From positions 1-23,072 of IMG/VR virus record IMGVR_UViG_3300046780_000009: DNA of 23,072 bases. One strand, written 5' to 3'. The notes beneath the pieces were generated by a model. The model was not told where the DNA came from, searched no databases, and saw only the letters and a program-made list of their open reading frames with translations. This DNA is from a virus. Shown in pieces: positions 1 through 10,417 of this stretch. The translations under genes were made by a program, and so were the position numbers. Positions within the stretch are counted from its first letter, which is position 1, and each line of letters begins with the position of its first letter.

Positions 1-115
1 GGGAGGGCAAAAAATTGTAAACGGCAGGAGGCCGCGGCGCGCGCCGAGTTCCGTTTTAGAAGTCGCACATTTTCGGCAAAGCCTTGGCGCTACGCGAAAA
101 AAGGAAGGGCAGAAT
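1..115 (+). other. Leader upstream of terminase genes
   Basis: No gene is called here. The stretch is too short to show whether it holds the end of an upstream coding region; a TAA at 18-20 and a TAG at 57-59 close one forward frame. The useful element is a purine-rich ribosome-binding site, AAGGAAGGG at 101-109, six bases before the small-terminase ATG at 116. Cohesive-end or packaging sites often lie just upstream of terminase genes, but I see no repeat or palindrome that would identify one. Confidence 0.5.
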
Positions 116-571
116 ATGCGGAGAGGACCAAAGCCGGCGCCGACGCATCTCAAGCTGTTGCGTGGCAACCCGAGCCGAAACCTCGATCGGCTCAACCTCA
201 ACGAGCCGCAGCCGGAAGGGATTGTCGAGATACCCGAGCCGCCGGCGTGTCTGACGGGCGTGGCCGCGGATCAATGGCGTTTGGCGGCCGGACAACTGAT
301 AGTCATGGGTATATTCAGCAAGGTTGATCTGACTTTGCTGGCGGCTTGGTGCCTTGCCTATGGGGTTTGGTGGGACGCGGCGATGGCGTTGCGCGACAGT
401 CCTCGTCTCACACGCAACCCGCATGTGGCGATCGCGAGTAAGGCGGCGGCCGACATGATCCGGCTGGCGAGCGAATTCGGGTTCAGTCCGGCGGCGCGGA
501 CGCGGATCAATGCCGGCTCGAGCGGCGCCGGTCGCCGGCCGGGCAAGTTCGACCGCTTTCTGTCCGGCTGA
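116..571 (+). CDS. terS: Terminase small subunit, P27 family
   Basis: This 151-residue protein is the DNA-recognition subunit of the packaging motor. It binds the packaging site on phage DNA and hands it to the large subunit. The N-terminus RRGPKPAPTHLKLLRGNP matches the signature of the P27-type small terminases (usual form G-R-K-P-K-P-T-x-L-K-L-L-x-G-N-P). An alpha-helical region with the pattern of a small terminase core follows, and the basic, glycine-rich tail at about residues 135-151 could contact DNA. Length is typical. The start at 116 is supported by the strong purine-rich site at 101-109, even though the frame is open further upstream. The stop overlaps the large-subunit start as TGATG, so the two are translationally coupled. 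Confidence 0.9.
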   Translation: MRRGPKPAPTHLKLLRGNPSRNLDRLNLNEPQPEGIVEIPEPPACLTGVAADQWRLAAGQLIVMGIFSKVDLTLLAAWCLAYGVWWDAAMALRDSPRLTRNPHVAIASKAAADMIRLASEFGFSPAARTRINAGSSGAGRRPGKFDRFLSG

Positions 572-2142
572 TGCCCGTCCAGCGCACCGCGGAGGGCAAG
601 CGCCGCGCCCAGGACGTTATCGACTTCATCGAGTGCCTCACGATCCCGAGCGGGACCGGCCAGGGCAAGCCGTTCAAGCTGCATCCGTTCCAGCGGGCTT
701 TTCTCAAGGACATTTACGAGCCGCATATCGGTGGCCGGCGCGTGGTGCGCCGCGCGATCCTCTCGATGGCGCGCAAGAACGGCAAGACGGCGTTGATTGC
801 GACAATGGCGCTCGCGCATCTGGTCGGGCCGGAACGGGTCGTTAACGGCGAAATCTATTCGGCCGCCAATGACCGCGACCAGGCCGGAATTGTGTTTAAG
901 TTCGCAAAGCAGATCGTCGAGCTCGAGCCGCAGCTCGCGGCCGAGATCGAGGTCATCACCTCGACCAAGACCATGTTTTCCCGGCGCACCGGCTCGATCT
1001 ATCGGGCCGTGAGCGCGGAGGCCGGCACCAAGCACGGCTATTTGCCGAGCGTCGTGATTTACGATGAGCTGGCGCAGGCCAAGAGTCGGGCCTTGTATGA
1101 CGTTCTCGATACCAGTTTCGGGGCGCGCGACGAGCCGCTGTTCATCACGATCAGCACGCAATCCAACGATCCCGAGCATGTGCTTTCGAAGCTGATCGAC
1201 GACGGCCTGGCAGGCACCGACCCGGCGATCGTTTGCCACTTGCATGCCGCGACCGAAGGCTGCGAGCTCGACGACGAAGCGCAATGGGCGAAAGCCAATC
1301 CGGCGCTCGGCAAGTTCCGCGATCGCGAAGACCTCGTCGCCGCGGTGCGCCAGGCCAAGCGCATGCCGGCGGGCGAGCCGAAGGTCCGCAACCTGTTTCT
1401 CAATCAGCGGGTGGCGCCGATAGCCTCGCTGATCTCGCGCGCCGAGTGGATGGCGTGCGCCGGCGACGCCAGGATCGCGGACGGCGAGGAGGTCTACCTC
1501 GCGCTCGACCTCTCGAGCGTCATCGATCTGACCGCGTTGATGGTGGGCTCGATCTCCGACCCGACGCGCGTGGTGCCGTATTTCTGGAAGCCGGCCGACC
1601 ATCTGACCGAGCACGCCAATCGCGACTTCGGCAGCGGCACGCACCGCTATCGGGAATGGGTCGAGGCCGGGCATCTGCGGCTCTCGCCCGGCAAGACCAT
1701 CGATCCCGAGACGATCGCGCGCTTCGTCGGCGAGCTCACGCAACGCTATCGCGTCAAGGGCATGGCCTATGACCGCTGGCGCATGGGCGACATTCTGCGG
1801 GAATTCGATCGCATCGGCCTGCAGGCTTACGAGGATGGCGAGAAGGGCGGCGACGGCCTGCGGCTTGTCCCCTGGGGACAAGGGTTCAAAGACATGGCGC
1901 CCGCGATCGACGCGCTCGAGCTCGCCATCATGGAGCGGCGCCTCGTCCATCCGAGCAACCCTTGCCTGAATTGGAACATGGCCAATGCTGTCGCGACGAT
2001 GGACCCGGCTGGCAATCGTAAGCTCGACAAAGACAAAGCTCGGTTTCGCATTGATGGCGCTGTCGCGCTCGCGATGCTGCTCGGTCTGCGCTCGCGTGAC
2101 CGCGTTGCTAAACCGATCGATCTTGAAACGCTGATCGCCTGA
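571..2142 (+). CDS. terL: Terminase large subunit (TerL)
   Basis: This 523-residue protein is the ATP-driven motor and nuclease that packages DNA into the procapsid. The ATPase half shows a Walker A-like motif ARKNGKT (residues 67-73) and a Walker B motif VVIYDE (161-166, acidic D165/E166), followed by a possible coupling motif (FITISTQ, 191-197). The nuclease half has the first metal-binding aspartate in YLALDLSSVIDLTAL (D313) and a late aspartate in RIDGAVALAML (D495), as expected for an RNase H-like terminase nuclease. The family is Terminase_1, usually found with P27 small subunits and HK97-type heads. It starts one base into the terS stop (TGATG). Length is complete and no motif is missing. 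Confidence 0.96.
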   Translation: MPVQRTAEGKRRAQDVIDFIECLTIPSGTGQGKPFKLHPFQRAFLKDIYEPHIGGRRVVRRAILSMARKNGKTALIATMALAHLVGPERVVNGEIYSAANDRDQAGIVFKFAKQIVELEPQLAAEIEVITSTKTMFSRRTGSIYRAVSAEAGTKHGYLPSVVIYDELAQAKSRALYDVLDTSFGARDEPLFITISTQSNDPEHVLSKLIDDGLAGTDPAIVCHLHAATEGCELDDEAQWAKANPALGKFRDREDLVAAVRQAKRMPAGEPKVRNLFLNQRVAPIASLISRAEWMACAGDARIADGEEVYLALDLSSVIDLTALMVGSISDPTRVVPYFWKPADHLTEHANRDFGSGTHRYREWVEAGHLRLSPGKTIDPETIARFVGELTQRYRVKGMAYDRWRMGDILREFDRIGLQAYEDGEKGGDGLRLVPWGQGFKDMAPAIDALELAIMERRLVHPSNPCLNWNMANAVATMDPAGNRKLDKDKARFRIDGAVALAMLLGLRSRDRVAKPIDLETLIA

Positions 2143-2155
2143 ACTACCCAACATG

Positions 2156-2162
2156 AAAGAGG
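2156..2162 (+). promoter_or_regulatory. Ribosome-binding site deciding the 2168 start
   Basis: AAAGAGG lies five bases before the ATG at 2168. An earlier in-frame ATG at 2153 has no comparable site and would put four extra charged or polar residues before a normal signal peptide. The 2168 start is therefore preferred. Confidence 0.6.
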
Positions 2163-2167
2163 CAACT

Positions 2168-2926
2168 ATGAAACGACTTGCGCTTACAGCTTCCATCCTG
2201 GCCGCGCTCGCGCTGCCCGCATCCGCCAGCACCATCACGCTGGGCAGCGTGACCTGGGACACCACCAACTCGGGCAGTCTGAGTCTCGGAAACGTGGTGC
2301 CGGCCGGCAACCAGCCGCAGAACGCGCCGTGCGTGATTTGCGGCGCGACCCAGCCGCAACAGCCGGCAAACTTCGGCTACAACGATTACAGCAACAACGG
2401 AGCCACGTCATCGATCACCGCGTTCTCCGATGAGGGCAATGGCGGCCGCAACACGCTGGCCGACAACACCTTCGCGACCGGCTACACCGTCGGCGCCGGA
2501 AGTCCGTTCCTGCTGTTCCTGCTCGCCAACAACGACACGAGCTTGGGCTTCTCGATCGGCGTGGACGTGAACGACACCAATCAGGCGCAGACGCTCAACT
2601 CGTTTTTCTTCCTCGACTTCACGACGCGCACTGTGCTGGCCTCGTTCACCGGCGGCACCACCGGCAACGTGCCGTCGCAAAACAACGGCACTGGCTTCCC
2701 GGACTATTCCATCACCGGGGCACTACTCAACCTCAACGATGTCCACGTGGGAGATACGATCGGCTTCGTGGCGCTGATGAGCGGGTTGAACGATGGCCCG
2801 GACTCGTTCTTCATCGAGGCGGCACCGGCGGCTGTCGTCACGCCGCTGCCGGCGTCGCTGCCGTTCTTTGGCGCCGGCCTGCTCGGCCTGATGGCGTTGC
2901 TCAGGAAAAAGCGTTCGATTGCCTGA
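2168..2926 (+). CDS. Exported protein with VPLPA/PEP-CTERM sorting signal
   Basis: This 252-residue protein has a clear Sec signal peptide (residues 1-20, basic MKR, hydrophobic core, ASA cleavage site). Its mature part is Asn/Thr/Gly-rich and looks beta-strand rich. The C-terminal tripartite sorting signal consists of VTPLPAS (224-230), a hydrophobic helix (about 230-245) and the basic cluster RKKR (246-249). In bacteria, proteins of this PEP-CTERM/VPLPA-CTERM type are processed by membrane exosortases and sent to the cell surface or extracellular matrix. No exosortase is in the window, so processing would depend on the host. A CVICG motif (55-59) gives two close cysteines. The gene sits directly between terL and the HNH gene on the same strand, with only short gaps, so it is probably co-transcribed. 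It has no obvious virion role, and an accessory (moron) gene that alters the infected or lysogenic cell surface is the best inference. The specific function is unknown. Confidence 0.85.
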   Translation: MKRLALTASILAALALPASASTITLGSVTWDTTNSGSLSLGNVVPAGNQPQNAPCVICGATQPQQPANFGYNDYSNNGATSSITAFSDEGNGGRNTLADNTFATGYTVGAGSPFLLFLLANNDTSLGFSIGVDVNDTNQAQTLNSFFFLDFTTRTVLASFTGGTTGNVPSQNNGTGFPDYSITGALLNLNDVHVGDTIGFVALMSGLNDGPDSFFIEAAPAAVVTPLPASLPFFGAGLLGLMALLRKKRSIA

Positions 2927-2929
2927 GCC

Positions 2930-3256
2930 ATGCCGCGACCAGGCGAGGCCCGCACCGCCTGGTCGCATTTCTACGGCAAGGCGTCGTGGCAGCGGCGGCG
3001 CCGGTTGCAACTGCGGGCGCATCCGCTCTGCGCCTTCTGCCTGGCGCGCGGCGTCGTCACGGTCGCTCGCATCGTCGATCACGTCGAGCCGCACAAGGGC
3101 GATTGGAACAAGTTTGTAATCGGCAAACTGCAATCGCTCTGCGATGCCTGCCACAACTCGTCCAAGCGGTTTATCGAGCTTGATGGCTACAGCATCGACG
3201 TTGACGACGACGGCTGGCCGCTCGATCCAAATCATCCGGCAAACAAGGTGCGATAG
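2930..3256 (+). CDS. HNH endonuclease, packaging-associated type
   Basis: This 108-residue protein has a zinc-bound HNH (beta-beta-alpha-metal) nuclease core. The first cysteine pair is C34/C37 (CAFC), the catalytic motif is VDHVEPHKGDW with D50-H51 and H55, and the second pair is C71/C74 in LCDACHNSSK, with H75 after it. Small HNH proteins encoded beside terminase genes in HK97-like phages work with the large terminase in cutting packaging DNA (established for HK97 gp74). Size and location fit that role better than a free-standing homing endonuclease. It starts three bases after the stop of the preceding gene. In many genomes this gene directly follows or precedes the terminase pair, so the sorting-signal gene looks inserted between them. 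Confidence 0.88.
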   Translation: MPRPGEARTAWSHFYGKASWQRRRRLQLRAHPLCAFCLARGVVTVARIVDHVEPHKGDWNKFVIGKLQSLCDACHNSSKRFIELDGYSIDVDDDGWPLDPNHPANKVR

Positions 3257-3268
3257 GGAGGCGATCAA

Positions 3269-3505
3269 ATGGGAATTCTCATCAGCTTTGCTTACCTCCT
3301 GCTTTACATCGCGATCGTCATCTTCATCGCATTCTGCATTGTTTGGTTGATCACGAGCTTCATGGGTTGGTCGATCGACGCGAACGTCTACAAGTGGGGC
3401 AAGGTCATCGTCGGTCTGCTCTGCATTATCGCCGTTCTGGTCTGGCTTTCCGGCTTGCTCGGCTTCGGTCCCGGCATTCCGCAACCGCATCTGATGTACC
3501 GATGA
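3269..3505 (+). CDS. Small two-TM membrane protein, candidate holin
   Basis: This 78-residue protein has two strong hydrophobic segments, at about residues 3-31 and 44-65, joined by a short polar loop (GWSIDANVYKWGK). The C-terminal tail is short and polar. I do not recognise the family. The ribosome-binding site AGGGAGG lies a few bases before the ATG. The stop overlaps the start of the endolysin-like gene as ATGA at 3502-3505. Small size, two membrane helices and coupling to a cell-wall lysis gene suggest a holin that releases the endolysin through the inner membrane. That role is inferred from context only; a general small inner-membrane protein is the alternative. Confidence 0.6.
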   Translation: MGILISFAYLLLYIAIVIFIAFCIVWLITSFMGWSIDANVYKWGKVIVGLLCIIAVLVWLSGLLGFGPGIPQPHLMYR

Positions 3506-4482
3506 TCGAGCGGCCGGTTCTTAGCATCGGCTCAATCGGGAGCCAGGTCGCGCTCGTGCAGCGCGTCCTCGAGGTCGAGCCGATCGACGGAGAATTCGGC
3601 GAGGCCACCGCGGACGCGGTCGCTGCCTACCAGAGCGGTGCCGATTTGGTTTCCGATGGCGTCGTCGGGCCGCTGACCTGGGATGAGCTCAACGCCGAAT
3701 TCCGCCTGCCGCCCTATCCGCCGGCGCTGCTCGAGCCGCTCGATCCGGTGACGACCGACCACATCGTAACGATCGCGCGCTCGTCGGACATCGCCAGCTA
3801 TAGCTGGGACGACCGCGGCGTTGCGCCGCTGGCCTACATCGCCGGCATGGCGGTCGCCTTCGCGATGTGCCTGCGTAAGCTGTTGGCGTTTGATAGTTCC
3901 GCGCTCGATATGGCGCGGGCCAATTCCCACGACCCGGACACGGATGCGCTCGCATGGTACGCGGAGATATTCGACGATTTCGACATGAGCAACGAAGCCG
4001 CCGGCATCGCGACGCTGCGACACCTTTTCGTGTTGTTGCTCGGCCTGGGTATGCGCGAGTCGTCCGGCCGACATTGCGAGGGCCGCGATCAAAGCGCCGA
4101 GAATGTCGAGAGTGAAACCGCCGAGGCCGGACTGTTTCAGCAATCATGGAATTCCGCGGGTTGCTCGACCGAGATCGAAAAGCTCGCGGCCGAATACGCT
4201 GCGGCCTTGAGCAGCGACGTTCCGCAATGCGCGCTCGCGGTCTTCTCTGACGATGTTTCCTGCTCGGAGTCCGATTGGGAAAACTACGGCAGCGGCGCCG
4301 GTCGCGACTTCCAAAAGCTCTGCAAGTGCTGCCCGCAATTCGCGATCGAGGCCGCGGCCATCGGCTTGCGTCACCTTCGGCAGCACTGGGGCCCGATCAA
4401 TAGAAAAGAGGTAGAAATAGTTGCTGCGGCCGACGCCATGTTCGCGGATGTCGAGGCGTTGACAACGGCCGGCATCGTTTAG
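3502..4482 (+). CDS. Peptidoglycan-binding endolysin-like protein
   Basis: This 326-residue protein begins with a peptidoglycan-binding domain of the PG_binding_1 type (about residues 5-62: paired IGSIGSQVALVQRVL and DGVVGPLTWDEL features). A proline-rich linker (68-82) and a larger C-terminal domain follow. That domain contains GMRESSGRHCEGRD (183-196; E186 is a plausible catalytic acid, as in the ESSG motif of lysozyme-like transglycosylases) and TAEAGLFQQSWNS (206-218). Cysteine-rich stretches at 243-277 may form disulfides. No signal peptide is visible, so export would need a holin, and the upstream gene is a candidate. The start at 3502 is chosen because it gives an ATGA overlap with that gene; an in-frame extension back to 3343 would lie inside it. 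The enzymatic class is inferred, not proven. Confidence 0.75.
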   Translation: MIERPVLSIGSIGSQVALVQRVLEVEPIDGEFGEATADAVAAYQSGADLVSDGVVGPLTWDELNAEFRLPPYPPALLEPLDPVTTDHIVTIARSSDIASYSWDDRGVAPLAYIAGMAVAFAMCLRKLLAFDSSALDMARANSHDPDTDALAWYAEIFDDFDMSNEAAGIATLRHLFVLLLGLGMRESSGRHCEGRDQSAENVESETAEAGLFQQSWNSAGCSTEIEKLAAEYAAALSSDVPQCALAVFSDDVSCSESDWENYGSGAGRDFQKLCKCCPQFAIEAAAIGLRHLRQHWGPINRKEVEIVAAADAMFADVEALTTAGIV

Positions 4483-4503
4483 AACCAATAATTGGTCGGC
4501 GGA

Positions 4504-4884
4504 TTATCGCGATCGTTCCACTAAATGTGCGCTTTCATCGTTCAACTTGCGAATGAGTGGTGTCATGTCGGGCCCGTAAATAGCGCAAAATTTTTGGAGG
4601 CCAGCTGCCTCGATTTCCTCTTTCACTTCGGCCTTTGTGTCCAAGGCGATTTGATGACGATCGTCATCCGACAACAGTGCCAGCAAATTGCCCATCACAA
4701 TCTTGGTCGTCGGAGTGATGATAGTTGGTACATTGCAGAGCTTCTCGTATAGCATGAACGTACCGAGCGATTTGAAAAATGCCTTTGGTTCGGGCAGGGC
4801 CCCGGCGGGCCATTGTGCGTGAGCCGTTGACAAAAGAGCAGCAACCACGACGGCGGCGGGGGCAAGCGTTTTTTGAATCCTCAT
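4504..4884 (-). CDS. Exported hypothetical protein, minus-strand accessory gene
   Basis: This 126-residue protein is the only gene on the minus strand. It has a Sec signal peptide (residues 1-23, ending AHA before QW) and a small mature domain of about 100 residues that looks mainly helical. Two cysteines (C50, C100) could form a disulfide in the periplasm. I do not recognise the family. It is convergent with the endolysin-like gene, with only 21 bases between stops, and divergent from the gene at 5021. Its DNA is less GC-rich than its neighbours: 4501-4680 contains 89 G/C of 180 by hand count, whereas the first 60 bases of the portal gene contain 44. Opposite strand, odd composition and an export signal fit a moron, perhaps expressed from its own promoter in a lysogen. 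No function can be assigned. Confidence 0.75.
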   Translation of the reverse strand: MRIQKTLAPAAVVVAALLSTAHAQWPAGALPEPKAFFKSLGTFMLYEKLCNVPTIITPTTKIVMGNLLALLSDDDRHQIALDTKAEVKEEIEAAGLQKFCAIYGPDMTPLIRKLNDESAHLVERSR

Positions 4885-5020
4885 TTCCAGGCGACTCCAT
4901 TTTTTCAGTGTTCAAAGCAACAGCACCCGCACCATACAGCGATCTAGCCTTGGACCCTTGTTCAACCGCGCCAATCAGTTGCTTCAATCGGCCATGTGAC
5001 CTCAAACCAGGAGATGCCCT
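4885..5020. promoter_or_regulatory. Divergent intergenic region
   Basis: This 136-base gap separates the minus-strand accessory gene from the rightward head genes, so it must hold any promoter for the former and could hold one for the latter. It is less GC-rich than its surroundings. I found no pair of -35/-10 boxes at normal spacing on either strand. The only clear element is a ribosome-binding site, AGGAG, just before the ATG at 5021. Confidence 0.35.
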
Positions 5021-5443
5021 ATGCCGATCACCATCGTTGACGGCCCGACCATCCCGTTCGGCGAGTCGCTTTCGGACGCCGCAGACTGCTCCGCAGGCAA
5101 CATCGTCCGCATCACCGTCCCGCAGGAATTCACGCCCGCAAATTTGACTTTTCAGGTCTCGAGCGACGGCAACCTGTTCAACGACTTGTTTGACAGCAAG
5201 GGCGGCGAGGTCACCGTGGTCGCCAAGCCGAATACCTCGATCCTGATTTCGGAGGCGTGGGGCCGCTCGATCAATTTCGTGAAATTCAGGTCCGGCTCGC
5301 GCGACCATCCGGTCGTGCAGTCGCGCGATGAATGCAAGTTCGGCATCGCGGTCGAGACCGGCGCCGGCGCTGCCGCCGGTATGGCGGCCGGGCATTCGGT
5401 CGATCGCATTCAACGCTCCGACAATCCCGACCCGCACCGCTGA
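5021..5443 (+). CDS. Hypothetical virion-region protein
   Basis: This 140-residue protein is not recognised with certainty. Residues 1-90 alternate hydrophobic and polar residues in a pattern suggesting a beta-sandwich (for example IVRITVPQEF, LTFQVSSDGN, EVTVVAKPN). The C-terminal 40 residues are small-residue-rich (GAGAAAGMAAG) and then polar. There is no signal peptide. It has a good ribosome-binding site (AGGAG, about seven bases upstream) and precedes the protease-capsid gene by 97 bases on the same strand. A capsid decoration or other minor virion protein is possible from its position and predicted fold, but this is a guess. It is the first gene after the accessory insert. Confidence 0.65.
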   Translation: MPITIVDGPTIPFGESLSDAADCSAGNIVRITVPQEFTPANLTFQVSSDGNLFNDLFDSKGGEVTVVAKPNTSILISEAWGRSINFVKFRSGSRDHPVVQSRDECKFGIAVETGAGAAAGMAAGHSVDRIQRSDNPDPHR

Positions 5444-5540
5444 GAGGCATCAGTGCGGTAGGCTCGCTGGGGCCGCCCTAACCACGCCGTCCCCGGCGGG
5501 CCGCTTGTCCATTCCCGAAAGTTTGTAAGGAGGCGCCGCC

Positions 5541-7661
5541 ATGGACGCAGCCGCGAAGCTGTCTCGCCAAGACCTCGAGCCCGAGGAGGACGAGAGCGAG
5601 GACGATTTCATGGAGCGGTGCATCGATGAGATCGGGGACGACGAGGCGTGCCAGATACTTTGGGAAAATCGCGGCGCCGGCGACATTCGCCACAAGACCC
5701 ACGAGGGCAAGGTCGGGGCGCTTGAGTTCATCCTCTCCGACGAAACGCCGGATCGAATGGATGACGTGATCATGGCGGACGGCTGGGAGCTCGCCGCCTT
5801 CAAGAAAAATCCGATTGCGTTGTTTGCTCACAATAGCTCATGGCCGATAGGCAAATGGAGCAAGCTCCGCGTCGTGGACAAGCAATTGCGCGGCGAGCTC
5901 GAGCTGGCCCCCAAGGGCACGTCCGATCGCATCGACGAGCTCCGCGCCTTGATCGACGCCGACATATTGCGCGCCGTCTCGGTCGGCTTCCGGCCGATGG
6001 AAACCAAGCCGCGCAAGGAGTCCGAATGGGGCGTCTTTTACACAAAGGCCGAGCTGGTCGAGTGCAGCCTGGTCTCGGTCCCGGCCAATCCAAACGCCCT
6101 GGCAGTTGCCAAGGGCCTGCGAATTTCCCCTGCAACGATCGACCTCGTCTTCGCCGGGCATGGCGCAAAAGACCGGGCCGCTCGCCGCGGGGCTCAACCG
6201 GCGGGCAAGCCGACACGACCTCCCATCAGAAAGGGCACGACCATGTCGTCGTTTGCTCAACGTATTACTGCGGTCGAGCAGCGCCTCAATGGGCTGCGCG
6301 ATCAACTCACGGAACATTGGACGAAGACCGATGATACCAACGTCAGCGACGAGCAATTGAATGCGGCGAACGAGCTCACGGGTCACATCACGCAGGCGGA
6401 ACATACGCTCGCCGGCCTGCGCGATGCCGAGCGCCAACTTGCCGCGACCGCTGATGACGGCGGCTCGCGCGCGGTCGCGGTCGTGGCCCGCGGCTCAACC
6501 GCCATCACGCCCGTCCGTACTGCGGCCGACACGACGCGGCCGTTCGCGTTGCCACGCAAGAAGACCGAGCCGCTCGATTTGCTGGTGCATTGCGGCGTCG
6601 CGCAGTTGTTCGCGCATCAGAAGCGCCAGCCGATCGATGTGACGATGCGGGAAATCTACGGCGACGATGAGATCCATCGCCAGGCGGTTCAGTGGATCAT
6701 GCGCGCCGCCACCGCGCCCGCTACTACCACCGCGGTCGGATGGGCCGCGGAATTGGCGCAGACCACCTACGCCGCGTTTATGGAAGTGCTCTATCCCGCG
6801 GCGATCTATCCGCGGCTGGCGGGCAAGGGATTGTCGCTCTCGTTTGGTCCCTACGGCAAAATCCTGATCCCGACGCGCGCGACCACGCCGACGATCGCCG
6901 GCTCGTTTGTTGGTGAAGGTTTGCCGATCCCGGTTCGCCAAGGGCTGTTCACATCGCAGACCTTGACGCCGAAGAAAATGGCCGTGATCACGACTTGGAC
7001 CAGGGAGCTCGGCGAGCATTCCGTTCCCGCGGTCGAGGGCCTGCTCCGCGATGCGATCCAGAACGACACCGCTATCTCGCTCGATAGCGTCCTGCTCGAT
7101 GCCAACCCGGCGACCGTGGTGCGGCCCGCCGGCATCCTCAACGGCGTGGCCGGCTTGACGCCGACCGCCGGCGGCGGCTTCGCCGCCCTGGTCGGTGACA
7201 TCAAGCAAATATCCGGCGCGCTGCTCACCGGCACCAAAGGCAACGTCAGAACGCCGGTCTGGCTGCTAAACCCCCAACAGGTGAATTCGATCGGGTTGGT
7301 TGCTGCGCCGGGCGCGGGCGTTTTTCCGTTCCGCGACGAGATCAGCCAAGGCCAGCTTGGTGGCTGGCCGGTCATCGCGTCTGGCACGGTGCCGCTCGGC
7401 ACGGTGATCGCCCTCGATGCCGCCGACTTCGTGGCGGTTGGCGGCGACGCGCCAAGGTTCGAAATCAGCGACCAGGCTACGCTGGTTTTTGACGACACGG
7501 CACCGACCGACATCGGCACGTCCGGCGCGCCCGCCGTGGTCGGTGCGCCGGCCAAGTCGATGTTCCAGACCGACTCGCTCGCCCTTCGATTGATCCTGCC
7601 GACCAACTGGTGCATTCGCCGCGCCGGCGTCGTCGCCTGGGTCGCCGGCGTGACTTGGTAG
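5541..7661 (+). CDS. Prohead protease / HK97-type major capsid protein fusion
   Basis: A single 706-codon frame encodes two head functions. Residues about 58-190 are an S78-family prohead protease: LEFILSDETPDRMDDVI (61-77), the catalytic histidine in FAHN (H97), the catalytic serine in RAVSVGF (S147), and AELVECSLVSVPANPNA (170-186), which carries the conserved acidic position. Residues about 235-330 look like a coiled-coil delta/scaffold domain. From about 330 onward is an HK97-fold capsid protein (LVGDIKQISGALL, VWLLNPQQV and QLGGWPVIASGTVP are typical). In related phages these are usually two genes. The start at 5541 has the best ribosome-binding site in the window (AAGGAGG at 5527-5533, seven-base spacer). 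An in-frame internal ATG at 6243 also has one, so free capsid protein could be made separately. The protease would cleave the delta domain during maturation. Confidence 0.92.
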   Translation: MDAAAKLSRQDLEPEEDESEDDFMERCIDEIGDDEACQILWENRGAGDIRHKTHEGKVGALEFILSDETPDRMDDVIMADGWELAAFKKNPIALFAHNSSWPIGKWSKLRVVDKQLRGELELAPKGTSDRIDELRALIDADILRAVSVGFRPMETKPRKESEWGVFYTKAELVECSLVSVPANPNALAVAKGLRISPATIDLVFAGHGAKDRAARRGAQPAGKPTRPPIRKGTTMSSFAQRITAVEQRLNGLRDQLTEHWTKTDDTNVSDEQLNAANELTGHITQAEHTLAGLRDAERQLAATADDGGSRAVAVVARGSTAITPVRTAADTTRPFALPRKKTEPLDLLVHCGVAQLFAHQKRQPIDVTMREIYGDDEIHRQAVQWIMRAATAPATTTAVGWAAELAQTTYAAFMEVLYPAAIYPRLAGKGLSLSFGPYGKILIPTRATTPTIAGSFVGEGLPIPVRQGLFTSQTLTPKKMAVITTWTRELGEHSVPAVEGLLRDAIQNDTAISLDSVLLDANPATVVRPAGILNGVAGLTPTAGGGFAALVGDIKQISGALLTGTKGNVRTPVWLLNPQQVNSIGLVAAPGAGVFPFRDEISQGQLGGWPVIASGTVPLGTVIALDAADFVAVGGDAPRFEISDQATLVFDDTAPTDIGTSGAPAVVGAPAKSMFQTDSLALRLILPTNWCIRRAGVVAWVAGVTW
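6231..6235 (+). promoter_or_regulatory. Internal ribosome-binding site for separate capsid start at 6243
   Basis: AAGGG lies seven bases before an in-frame ATG at 6243 (residue 235 of the fusion), exactly at the junction between the proline/arginine-rich protease tail and the coiled-coil delta domain. It could allow independent production of a 472-residue capsid protein in the large excess that a capsid needs over its protease. Confidence 0.5.
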
Positions 7662-8044: not shown

Positions 8045-9471
8045 GCGCACGCGCCTGGCTAGGGCGGATCGCCGATCGCCTCGTTCGCCGAGGCGAAGGC
8101 GACTTTCGCCCTGGCCCTTACAATCTGTCGGTGACGGGCGGCTGGTTGCCGGATGGCGCCGCTTGGAATTGGTGGCAACAGGGATACGACCCGATCACCG
8201 CGCCACGGTCGGCAATGGTTGAGGCTTGCGTCTCGGCCTATTCGCAGACCGTGGCGATGTGCCCTGGCGATCACTGGCGCCTCAACTCAAAGGGCGGGCG
8301 CGACCGCGTCAAGAATTCGGCGCTGTCCCGCCTGCTGCGCTATTTCAACGATTATCAGTCAACAAGCGATTTCATGCTCAATGCGACGCGCTCGCTCTAT
8401 GAGCACGGCAACACTTATGCGCTGGCGTTGCGCAACGATCGCTACGAGGTGGATGAGCTCCACCTTATGGACCCGCTGATGTCGCAGCCGCGGCTCGCGG
8501 TCAACGGCGAGATTTTCTATCAGCTCTACGGCAACGACGTTATTCAACGTCGGCTCGGCGCCGACAATCAGTTGTTGGTGCCGCAGCGCGACGTGCTGCA
8601 TATCCGCTTGCATACGAAGCGATATCGCCAGCCGACACCGCTGGTGGGCGAGTCGCCGATCGTTGCCGCCTATGCCGACATCGGCGCCGGCGCAGCTATC
8701 GTCAATCAGCAAGGGTCGTTCTACACGAACGAAGCGCGGCCGAGCGCCGTGCTCTCGACCGATCTCATCCTCGATAAGGATCAGGTTCAGGCGTTGCGCG
8801 ACCGCTGGAACGAGCAAGCGAAGGGCCTCAAGCAAGGCGGCACGCCGATCCTCACCGCCGGCCTCAAGGTGCAGCCGTGGGCCGTCGGCGGGCGCGACGC
8901 AGCGACCGCGGACGTTCTCAAGCTGACCAACGAGCACATCGCGCTCGCCTTCCGCATTCCGCTGCAAATCTTCGGGCTCGGGACCAGTGGGTTTTCGTCC
9001 ACCGAATTGTTGATGCAGAGCTGGATCGCGAGCGGGCTCGGCTTCGCGCTCAATCACATCGAGGAAGCCATCGGCGCGATGTTCCAGCTCAAGGGACAGC
9101 CGGACGAGTATGTGGAATTCGACACCGGCGCATTGCTGCGCTCGGCGCAGAAAGACCGGATCGACTCGCTGGCGCGCGGCGTGCAAGGCGGCATCTACGC
9201 GCCCAACGAGGCGCGCGAGATGGAGGGCCTCGAGGCCGTGCCATTCGGCGATGAGCCGCGCGTGCAACAGCAAGTCGTGCCCTTGAGCCAGGTCGGCAAG
9301 ATCCCGGCCGCGCCTGCGCCTGGCGCGCCGCCGCCGGCGCCCACCGACCAGCCGAAACCGGCCGACCAGCCGAAGCCGCCGCAGAAGGCCAGCCGCGATG
9401 ACATCCATCGAGAAGTCGGAAACATCTTTGCCAACGCCGATCGGATCGGACGCCGCCGAATGTCTGCTTGA
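8041..9471 (+). CDS. Portal protein, HK97 family
   Basis: This 476-residue protein is the ring at the single head vertex through which DNA enters and leaves. Recognisable portal features include the stretch with [20 protein letters not shown] (residues about 61-80), the segment around [14 protein letters not shown], the [19 protein letters not shown] region, and the helical core with [20 protein letters not shown] (301-320). The C-terminal part from about 420 is Pro/Ala-rich and repetitive ([12 protein letters not shown]) and is probably a flexible tail. GTG is the likely start, overlapping the previous stop as GTGA. Portal after capsid is the reverse of the common portal-protease-capsid order. 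The last 74 bases are also read in another frame as the start of the collagen-like gene. Confidence 0.93.
9383..9388 (+). promoter_or_regulatory. Ribosome-binding site inside portal gene for 9398 start
   Basis: AGAAGG lies nine bases before the ATG at 9398, within the portal reading frame. It supports the long 74-base gene overlap over a later non-ATG start for the collagen-like protein. Confidence 0.55.
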
Positions 9472-10417
9472 GGCGTGGCGCGAAGTCCTGGCCGAGGTGC
9501 TCGATAACGCCCGGTGCCAGTGGCAGCGCGAGCACGCCCTCGCCCAGGCGCAGACCGCGGCCACGCTGGCCGAGCTCCGCGCCGAGGTCGCGATCGCCCG
9601 CACCGACATGCGCGAAATGGCGGCGGCGCGCCTGGCCGAGCTCCGCAGCGGGGCCGATGGGGCGCCCGGCCCGGCCGGCGCGCCTGGTGCGCCCGGCGAG
9701 CCCGGCAAGGAAGGGCCTCCCGGCTTATCCGGGGCGCCCGGTGAGCGCGGTTTGCCCGGCCCGCTAGGTGACATAGGCCCTCCCGGCGAACGCGGCCCAG
9801 CGGGCGACCGTGGCGAGCCTGGCGGCCAAGGTGAGCGGGGCGAGCCCGGCCCTCCCGGAGCTCCCGGCCCGGCCGGCGAGCGCGGCGAGAAGGGCGCGCC
9901 CGGCATGTTGCGGTGCGTCAAGACCTTCGCCGCCGGCACGGTGCATTACGAGGGCGAGCTCGTCGCCGCCGCCGGCAGCACTTGGCAGGCGCGCCGGGAT
10001 ACCGCCGCGGCGCCGCCGCATGAGGATTGGGCGCTCGTTGCCGCGGCCGGGCGCGACGCGCCGGTCCCGGTCGTCCGCGGCACCTGGCGCGAGGGCGAGA
10101 GCTACCGCGCTCTCGAGGTCGTGGCATTGAACGGCTGTGGCTTCATCGCCCGCGCCGACAATCCGGGGCCGTGCCCTGGCGACGGCTGGCAATTGATCGC
10201 TTCGGCCGGGCGGCCCGGCAAGCAGGGACTTCCCGGCGGCAAGGGCGAGCGCGGCGAGCGCGGCATGCCAGGCATGGCGGCGCAGGCGCCGGCGATCGTC
10301 GCCTGGCGCATCGACCGCAAGACTTACACGGCAACGCCGCTCATGGACGACGGCAACGCCGGCGCGCCGCTCGAGCTGCGCGAGCTGTTCGCTCAATTTC
10401 AGGACGAGGCCGGCTGA
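9398..10417 (+). CDS. Collagen-like virion protein with CBM-like modules
   Basis: This 339-residue protein has a mosaic structure. Residues about 20-84 are an alpha-helical, probably coiled-coil, trimerisation region. Residues 85-171 are 29 uninterrupted Gly-X-Y triplets, rich in Pro at X or Y. Two related modules follow at about 180-218 and 227-270, each with the pattern (Y or W)-x-E-G-E, an aromatic or phenylalanine plus small-residue segment, a conserved tryptophan (W211, W264) and an ending of L-(V/I)-A-(A/S)-A-G; this resembles chitin-binding CBM5/12-like repeats. Eight more Gly-X-Y triplets occupy 271-294, then a globular end. Trimeric collagen segments are known in phage fibres and head decorations. 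Its place between portal and connector suggests a neck or head fibre that binds glycans, but the role is inferred. It overlaps the portal gene by 74 bases. Confidence 0.85.
9650..9910 (+). repeat. Gly-X-Y collagen repeat (29 triplets)
   Basis: An uninterrupted nine-base coding periodicity encodes 29 Gly-X-Y triplets within the collagen-like gene. Proline is frequent at both X and Y, and charged pairs such as GER and GEK are common, which favours a stable bacterial-type triple helix without hydroxyproline. Confidence 0.9.

Follow-up and report, generated by a model that had tools for sequence, protein, structure and literature searches.

A mobile phage gene for a predicted exosortase-type surface protein beside a terminase gene

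Gene content of the locus

We analysed the complete IMG/VR virus record IMGVR_UViG_3300046780_000009, a stretch of 23,072 bases that we call the window, and in particular a gene of its plus strand, hereafter the cargo gene, which encodes a predicted secreted protein of exosortase type (PEP-CTERM-like). A preliminary description, made from the letters alone, had placed such an exosortase substrate, with a signal-like N-terminus, in a phage packaging cluster between the gene for the terminase large subunit (terL) and an HNH gene, on the same strand and with minimal spacing. The layout and the position are confirmed: the open reading frame (ORF) at 2168-2926 (+) ends with TPLPAS, a helix and RKKR, and it is separated from the end of terL at 2142 by 25 nucleotides (nt) and from the HNH start at 2930 by 3 nt. 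The features of the locus are listed below, with viral loci designated by L numbers.

571..2142, plus strand: terL, terminase large subunit, upstream flank (family searches)
2133..2142, plus strand: left copy of a short direct repeat, GATCGCCTGA, at the end of terL
2168..2926, plus strand: cargo gene, for a 252-amino-acid (aa) exosortase-type (PEP-CTERM-like) secreted protein
2168..2227, plus strand: signal-like N-terminal segment, residues 1-20 (sequence and hydropathy filter)
2228..2833, plus strand: ectodomain, residues 21-222, beta-rich, with conserved C55, C58 and NDGPDSFF (sequence comparison, structure model)
2834..2926, plus strand: putative C-terminal sorting tail, TPLPAS, helix and RKKR, then stop (homology to L273 resumes at 2831)
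2917..2926, plus strand: right copy of the repeat, GATTGCCTGA, at the end of the cargo gene; homology to L274, an empty-site phage, resumes here
2930..3256, plus strand: HNH endonuclease gene, downstream flank (family searches)

The cargo protein

The cargo gene starts with an ATG preceded by AAAGAGG, and an alternative in-frame ATG at 2153 would add five residues. The N-terminus of the protein, MKRLALTASILAALALPASAS, is signal-like as judged by eye and by hydropathy, and its C-terminus, VVTPLPASLPFFGAGLLGLMALLRKKRSIA, has the layout of an exosortase tail, with a PxP motif (TPLPAS), a single helix and a terminal basic cluster (RKKR). The AlphaFold2 model places the helix at residues 231-249, in a region of low confidence. 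Some relatives with the same ectodomain carry tails that score above the cut-offs of curated sorting models, namely L032 (21.4) and L059 (23.8) for PF07589 (cut-off 20.7), and L055 (20.0) and L059 (22.5) for TIGR02595 (cut-off 16).

The ectodomain weakly resembles lectin and CBM beta-sandwiches. In a model of modest quality (pLDDT 64.9; an earlier one from 25 near relatives was poor, at 57.2), the closest likeness is to 8pxu_B, with 3.1 Å over 118 residues and a VIA Z of 7.7, which falls within the range reached by unrelated models; the others are weaker (CBM32, Z up to 6.0; ConA-like, Z up to 5.5). A Foldseek search of the ectodomain model against PDB and viral models gave nothing at E<=0.001. 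The sole sequence-profile matches in PDB, to beta-glucosidase chains (E 0.02-0.08), were dismissed as chance.

A variable slot between terL and HNH

Using the window terL, we searched viral contigs and obtained 126 relatives, of which 80 were kept. The preliminary description had asked whether related prophages carry the same insertion, and the answer is mixed: the junction with terL recurs, while the slot may also be empty or hold another ectodomain. In L274 (terL 96%) there is no cargo gene and HNH follows terL after 3 nt; the match of the window to this phage stops at 2142 and resumes at 2917, with copies of GAT(C/T)GCCTGA at the two ends of the interruption. In L273 (terL 96%) the slot is occupied by a protein of 179 aa whose ectodomain is unrelated and whose tail is almost the same, and the segments for HNH, the 78-aa protein, endolysin and capsid are 100% identical to those of the window. 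The match to L273 runs to 2153 and resumes at 2831 with 98.8%, which indicates that only signal and ectodomain were replaced.

More distant phages have similar arrangements. A 37% relative lies behind terL in L328 (terL 71%), and likewise in L353-L360, L362 and L364, where terL is in view; in L323 an unrelated protein with a tail is encoded between terS and terL. Searching the terL clade of the window for ORFs with both signal and tail, we found them in 24 of 80 viral loci (527 kb), which count some phages more than once and so do not amount to 24 independent events, and in none of the 80 terL loci (554 kb) taken from genomes of bacteria; this difference argues that they occur beyond chance. 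Many other loci of the clade have HNH close behind terL, or different small genes in the slot. Among the latter, L277, L282, L283 and L284 encode small proteins with VTVQGSSDG or VSVLVSTEG motifs and no surface protein, and these look similar to the product of window positions 5021-5443.

Conservation and mobility of the cargo gene

Viral contig scans recovered 113 relatives with the cargo protein and 188 with the ectodomain alignment, mostly from the same contigs, and 80 of each were kept. After removal of eight truncated loci, 72 of 80 hold complete cargo proteins, 45 of them distinct and one identical to that of the window. The ratio of nonsynonymous to synonymous change (dN/dS) in the ectodomain is 0.06-0.27 over 16 chosen pairs, and the comparison indicates that the ectodomains are under purifying selection.

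At least seven gene neighbourhoods contain the cargo gene. The layout described for the window is thus real without being restricted to it: the packaging context is present in 25 of the 80 kept loci (24 directly behind a window-type terL, plus L026, counted here although its contig ends before terL), and in the remaining 55 the packaging neighbours are absent at the cargo gene. In L001 and L002 a different terL (phrog_2) lies on one side of it and a portal gene (phrog_146) on the other. In L018 and L037 it follows a phrog_146 portal, and in L055 and L064 one of phrog_1216; L056 has it downstream of a head-tail adaptor gene, L044 and L035 near RecE-like or primosomal genes, and L060 and L069 next to genes for virion or tail-fibre proteins. 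In L019 and L028 a window-type terL is fused to the portal region of the other background, with the cargo gene at the joint, and L007 combines an L003-type cargo gene (96%) with a downstream neighbourhood identical to that of the window. When window positions 1701-3700 were compared with seven loci of other backgrounds, DNA similarity was limited to the cargo gene, at 71-84%.

Head or portal genes adjoin the cargo gene in several of these backgrounds, and the protein might on that account be a virion component shown on the particle. We regard this as very improbable: the protein has no PHROG match, and a signal peptide with a C-terminal membrane helix is ill-suited to capsid assembly in the cytoplasm.

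The preliminary description would have been overturned by a gene absent from all relatives and decayed, or by an assembly chimera at 2143-2930. Neither was borne out, given the 113 and 188 relatives and the dN/dS values above. A chimera is ruled out, as the junction of terL with the gene recurs in other records and the L065 record is identical to the window across the 2,000 bases compared. That the gene is missing from the corresponding slot in many relatives could also suggest a passive hitchhiker or an artefact, which we consider scarcely credible, in view of the many separate assemblies, the identical copy in L065 and a dN/dS well below 1. The cargo gene, as far as sequence can tell, is a conserved and mobile phage gene and not a decayed one.

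Origin from a host chromosome finds no support in the genomes searched. The ectodomain profile matched none of 265 Bradyrhizobium genomes (the likely host genus, see below) and none of 397 order-level genomes (the two sets overlap, e.g. in G031), and it works on viral records, matching seven of nine in a positive control in which the two misses were a swapped slot and an empty slot. A scan of 84,980 species with two peptide patterns matched 36 stretches, none of which was confirmed, though remote homologues could escape such patterns. Collections of cultured phages and of plasmids gave no match to the cargo protein.

Exchange of tails and ectodomains

The tails within the cargo family are of TPLPAS, VPEPGS or VPGPxxGAGLPGL type, to which the L328 group adds TPIPGAAWLF, VPVPGAVWLF and VPIPPA. 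Among the 990 pairs formed by 45 proteins, the tails are more alike than the ectodomains by at least 0.10 in nine. Examples are L062/L063, with a nucleotide identity of 0.94 in the tail against 0.71 in the ectodomain, and L038/L040, with 0.96 against 0.78-0.79. Conversely, in 96 of the 990 pairs the ectodomains reach at least 0.85 and the tails are at least 0.20 lower. In several of these divergent-tail pairs synonymous change is also higher in the tail than in the ectodomain (window/L003, 0.40 vs 0.15; L059/L066, 0.70 vs 0.39); quicker evolution of the tail could be part of the cause of the 96 divergent-tail pairs, but not of the nine in which the tails are the more alike. The ectodomain of L273 is found again in L332, L336 and L378, there joined to a tail of G(A/T)GLPGL type. 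Taken together, these comparisons indicate that tails and ectodomains recombine separately.

Across 265 sequences (the window plus overlapping viral loci) we counted 83 distinct signal-plus-tail proteins, some of them in tandem, which by ectodomain fall into 11 clusters. Tandem pairs of unrelated signal-plus-tail proteins were seen at L067:5186-5935, L059:3441-4169, L378:3264 and 3995, and L241:4007 and 4816. One of the second, unrelated tailed proteins has 15 viral relatives, several of them from other metagenomes, and another has three.

A different explanation would be that the protein acts in the inner membrane during the lytic cycle, with the helix anchoring a periplasmic domain that aids lysis or assembly and the PxP motif being incidental. 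Proximity to terL, HNH, a 78-aa hydrophobic protein and a putative endolysin would suit such a role, and the sorting models fail to recognise some of the tails. We nevertheless judge it improbable, since the location is not conserved (the 55 loci without packaging neighbours include some with recombination or primosomal genes instead), some tails fall in curated sorting classes, tails are exchanged as units, and the near relative L274 does without the gene.

Phage background of the window

The window comes from a soil phage with an HK97-like background. Its terminase is of this type, with best cultured relatives about 40% identical, HK97 among them, and a protease-capsid fusion is present, in that a single 706-aa frame (5541-7661, plus strand) joins prohead protease and major capsid protein. 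The frame behind this fusion is taken for the portal by position. The 78-aa hydrophobic protein and the putative endolysin are encoded near the cargo gene. Further along, downstream of the capsid genes, a 339-aa frame (9398-10417, plus strand) contains a long collagen-like Gly-X-Y stretch. Between endolysin and capsid lies a 126-aa antisense frame (4504-4884, minus strand) with a signal-like N-terminus, which has a counterpart in L007, L065 and L273 and none in L003, and which gave no match in family searches. A terminator scan returned as many hits as shuffled sequences.

Host and sorting enzyme

Among the best 80 of 569 genomic relatives of the window terL, the nearest four are from Bradyrhizobium (81, 74, 73 and 64%), the next, at 54%, being found elsewhere. 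Bradyrhizobium is thus the likely host genus. None of the four Bradyrhizobium loci has such a cargo gene within 3 kb behind terL.

We found no exosortase (PF09721) in the window nor in 30 further whole viral records, which may be fragments. Of 265 Bradyrhizobium genomes (G numbers), 39 have an exosortase, 47 a PEP-CTERM tail and 35 both. The proposed dependence on a host exosortase fits the absence of a match in 31 viral records and the presence of the enzyme in part of the likely host genus; it fits less well with the mere 39 genomes that have it and the four in which XrtD was shown. Twelve genomes have PEP-CTERM tails and no PF09721 match, including G159 (23 tails) and G188 (31 tails), for which missing contigs and another enzyme are both candidate causes.

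Of the 39 exosortases, four exceed 540 aa in frame length, and all four are XrtD (439-547 bits; cut-off 400), an enzyme specific for VPLPA tails. The other 35, of 301-392 aa, comprise one XrtV and 34 that were left unclassified. The host tails are mostly VPEPSTWAMM-like, unlike the phage tails (11 tails, at 9 of 20 loci, this being an uneven sample of the best-scoring PEP-CTERM matches). A profile of the PLPAS phage tails matched seven of the 265 genomes at E<=0.01, the best being G075 and G135, both XrtD genomes. Host genes with VPLPA tails immediately follow XrtD in G149 and G249; in G075 the distance is about 4 kb.

The GAGLPGL tail profile matched 29 of the 265 genomes, strongly in five, with one to eight copies each. 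Secreted-looking host proteins ending in VPGPxxGAGLPGL, a helix and RRRR occur in G187, G081, G222, G064 and G279, which have no PF09721 match, and the VPGPxxGAGLPGL tail is also found on phage proteins of L071, L074, L078, L325, L332, L336 and L378. This combination of motif, helix and RRRR is a candidate sorting signal.

A proposed route to the host surface

The cargo gene product is probably a surface protein displayed by exosortase, borrowing the enzyme of its host. By the route that we infer for its processing, display and function, and for its actual host, the protein would be exported by Sec and retained in the inner membrane by its C-terminal helix; a host exosortase, most likely XrtD in the case of the TPLPAS tail, would recognise the tail and hand the ectodomain over to the surface or to exopolysaccharide. 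The tail would then be an exchangeable adapter matched to the sorting class of the host, and the ectodomain the working part. The passage from Sec through a host exosortase to the surface would follow the model of Haft 2006 (PMC1569441).

Several observations weigh against such display. The tail of the window protein (residues 225-247) scores 16.0 bits with the Pfam PEP-CTERM model, whose cut-off is 20.7, and NCBIfam TIGR02595 and TIGR03370 give no match to the window at E<=1. Neither PF07589 nor TIGR02595 matches the tails of L003 (which has only a non-significant XDP1 match, E 0.3) and L074, and L061, L063 and L064 carry TEP or LEP where the PxP motif is expected, so that the motif is weakened in those copies. 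The host is placed only as far as a likely genus, and none of the four Bradyrhizobium genomes that carry the nearest prophages has a PF09721 match. XrtD was shown in just four of the 265 genomes (with 34 shorter exosortases unclassified); two of these, G149 and G249, have no match to the PLPAS profile, and in G135 the 18 kb around XrtD contain no convincing VPLPA-tailed gene, a 655-aa frame flagged by the tail scan having been dropped for want of a basic end. Host proteins with GAGLPGL tails occur in genomes without a PF09721 match. The packaging location, finally, argues against a purely lysogenic role.

As for what a displayed ectodomain would do, it might act like the matrix proteins of the PEP-CTERM class in hosts, in adhesion, flocculation or binding of exopolysaccharide, to the benefit of the lysogen. 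The weak beta-sandwich likeness to lectins and CBMs speaks for this, as does the weak resemblance of second tandem proteins to the flocculation protein PepA (E 2.2e-9 and 1.6e-5; 37.5 and 24.8 bits, cut-off 80). A tyrosine integrase was found in 10 of 27 records (nine above cut-off), so that some carriers are probably temperate; it was not found in the other 17, many of which are fragments. The gene row of the packaging region, with the cargo gene 25 nt behind terL, and the lack of a sigma-70-like promoter match in window positions 1-5600 (other promoter types being outside the scan) suggest late expression, during lytic growth, which favours a role during infection over a benefit to the lysogen only. 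We therefore consider a lysogen-fitness matrix protein rather unlikely.

Within exosortase display, we favour a role in infection, in which the protein would keep competing or wasted adsorption away from the cell or its progeny phages. The likeliest use, which we put forward tentatively, is superinfection control: the altered surface of the infected cell would reduce adsorption of competing or sister phages. On a larger scale, and with somewhat less hesitation, we suggest that soil phages may share a pool of ectodomains and tails that are recombined, with viral display through a host exosortase or, for the GAGLPGL tail, a putative sorting enzyme, and the tail as a host-specific address label.

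Comparison with known systems

A small envelope protein encoded by a phage and altering adsorption is known in T5, whose Llp is a superinfection-exclusion lipoprotein. The cargo protein is likewise small, phage-encoded and, by prediction, of the envelope; Llp, by contrast, is a lipoprotein and not an exosortase substrate.

Similar in tail are the VPLPA-CTERM proteins (TIGR03370) sorted by XrtD (TIGR04152), a pair present in some Bradyrhizobium, to which the TPLPAS and TPLPGA tails of the window type look alike. The difference lies in the scores: the best TIGR03370 score among eight relatives scanned is 23.7 (L051), under the cut-off of 25.35, and the window protein has no match. The cargo protein is thus not assigned to VPLPA-CTERM, and is said here only to work like a member. 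Similarly, the weak likeness of second tandem phage proteins to PepA (NF033554) lies far under the cut-off, and the window protein has no match to this model.

In the literature, as far as titles and the openings of abstracts go, no phage-encoded PEP-CTERM protein has been reported. The one near exception concerns a Yellowstone virus community (PMC11003980), for which TIGR03118 proteins (n=13) are listed with other transferred proteins of cellular origin. They are only named there, and the passage discusses no slot, tail exchange or function. Neither 'phage' nor 'virus' occurs in the main text of Haft 2006 (PMC1569441).

As described there, PEP-CTERM substrates of exosortase (EpsH) (PF07589, TIGR02595) have a signal peptide, mostly unrelated ectodomains, and an end made of PxP, helix and basic residues, often with several per genome (PMC1569441), and the tailed proteins found here share these features. 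They differ in that phages carry them, in this case within a packaging slot, in that no exosortase was found in the phage, and in that the tail type varies within one ectodomain family. Exosortase substrates as such are already known and have so far been regarded as chromosomal matrix proteins; the form described here is exchangeable and carried by phages. If our reading is true, phages gain a route to the surface of Gram-negative cells, and the same ectodomain with different tails is a natural experiment in the specificity of sorting signals, one that makes both exosortase specificity and phage control of host surfaces directly testable.
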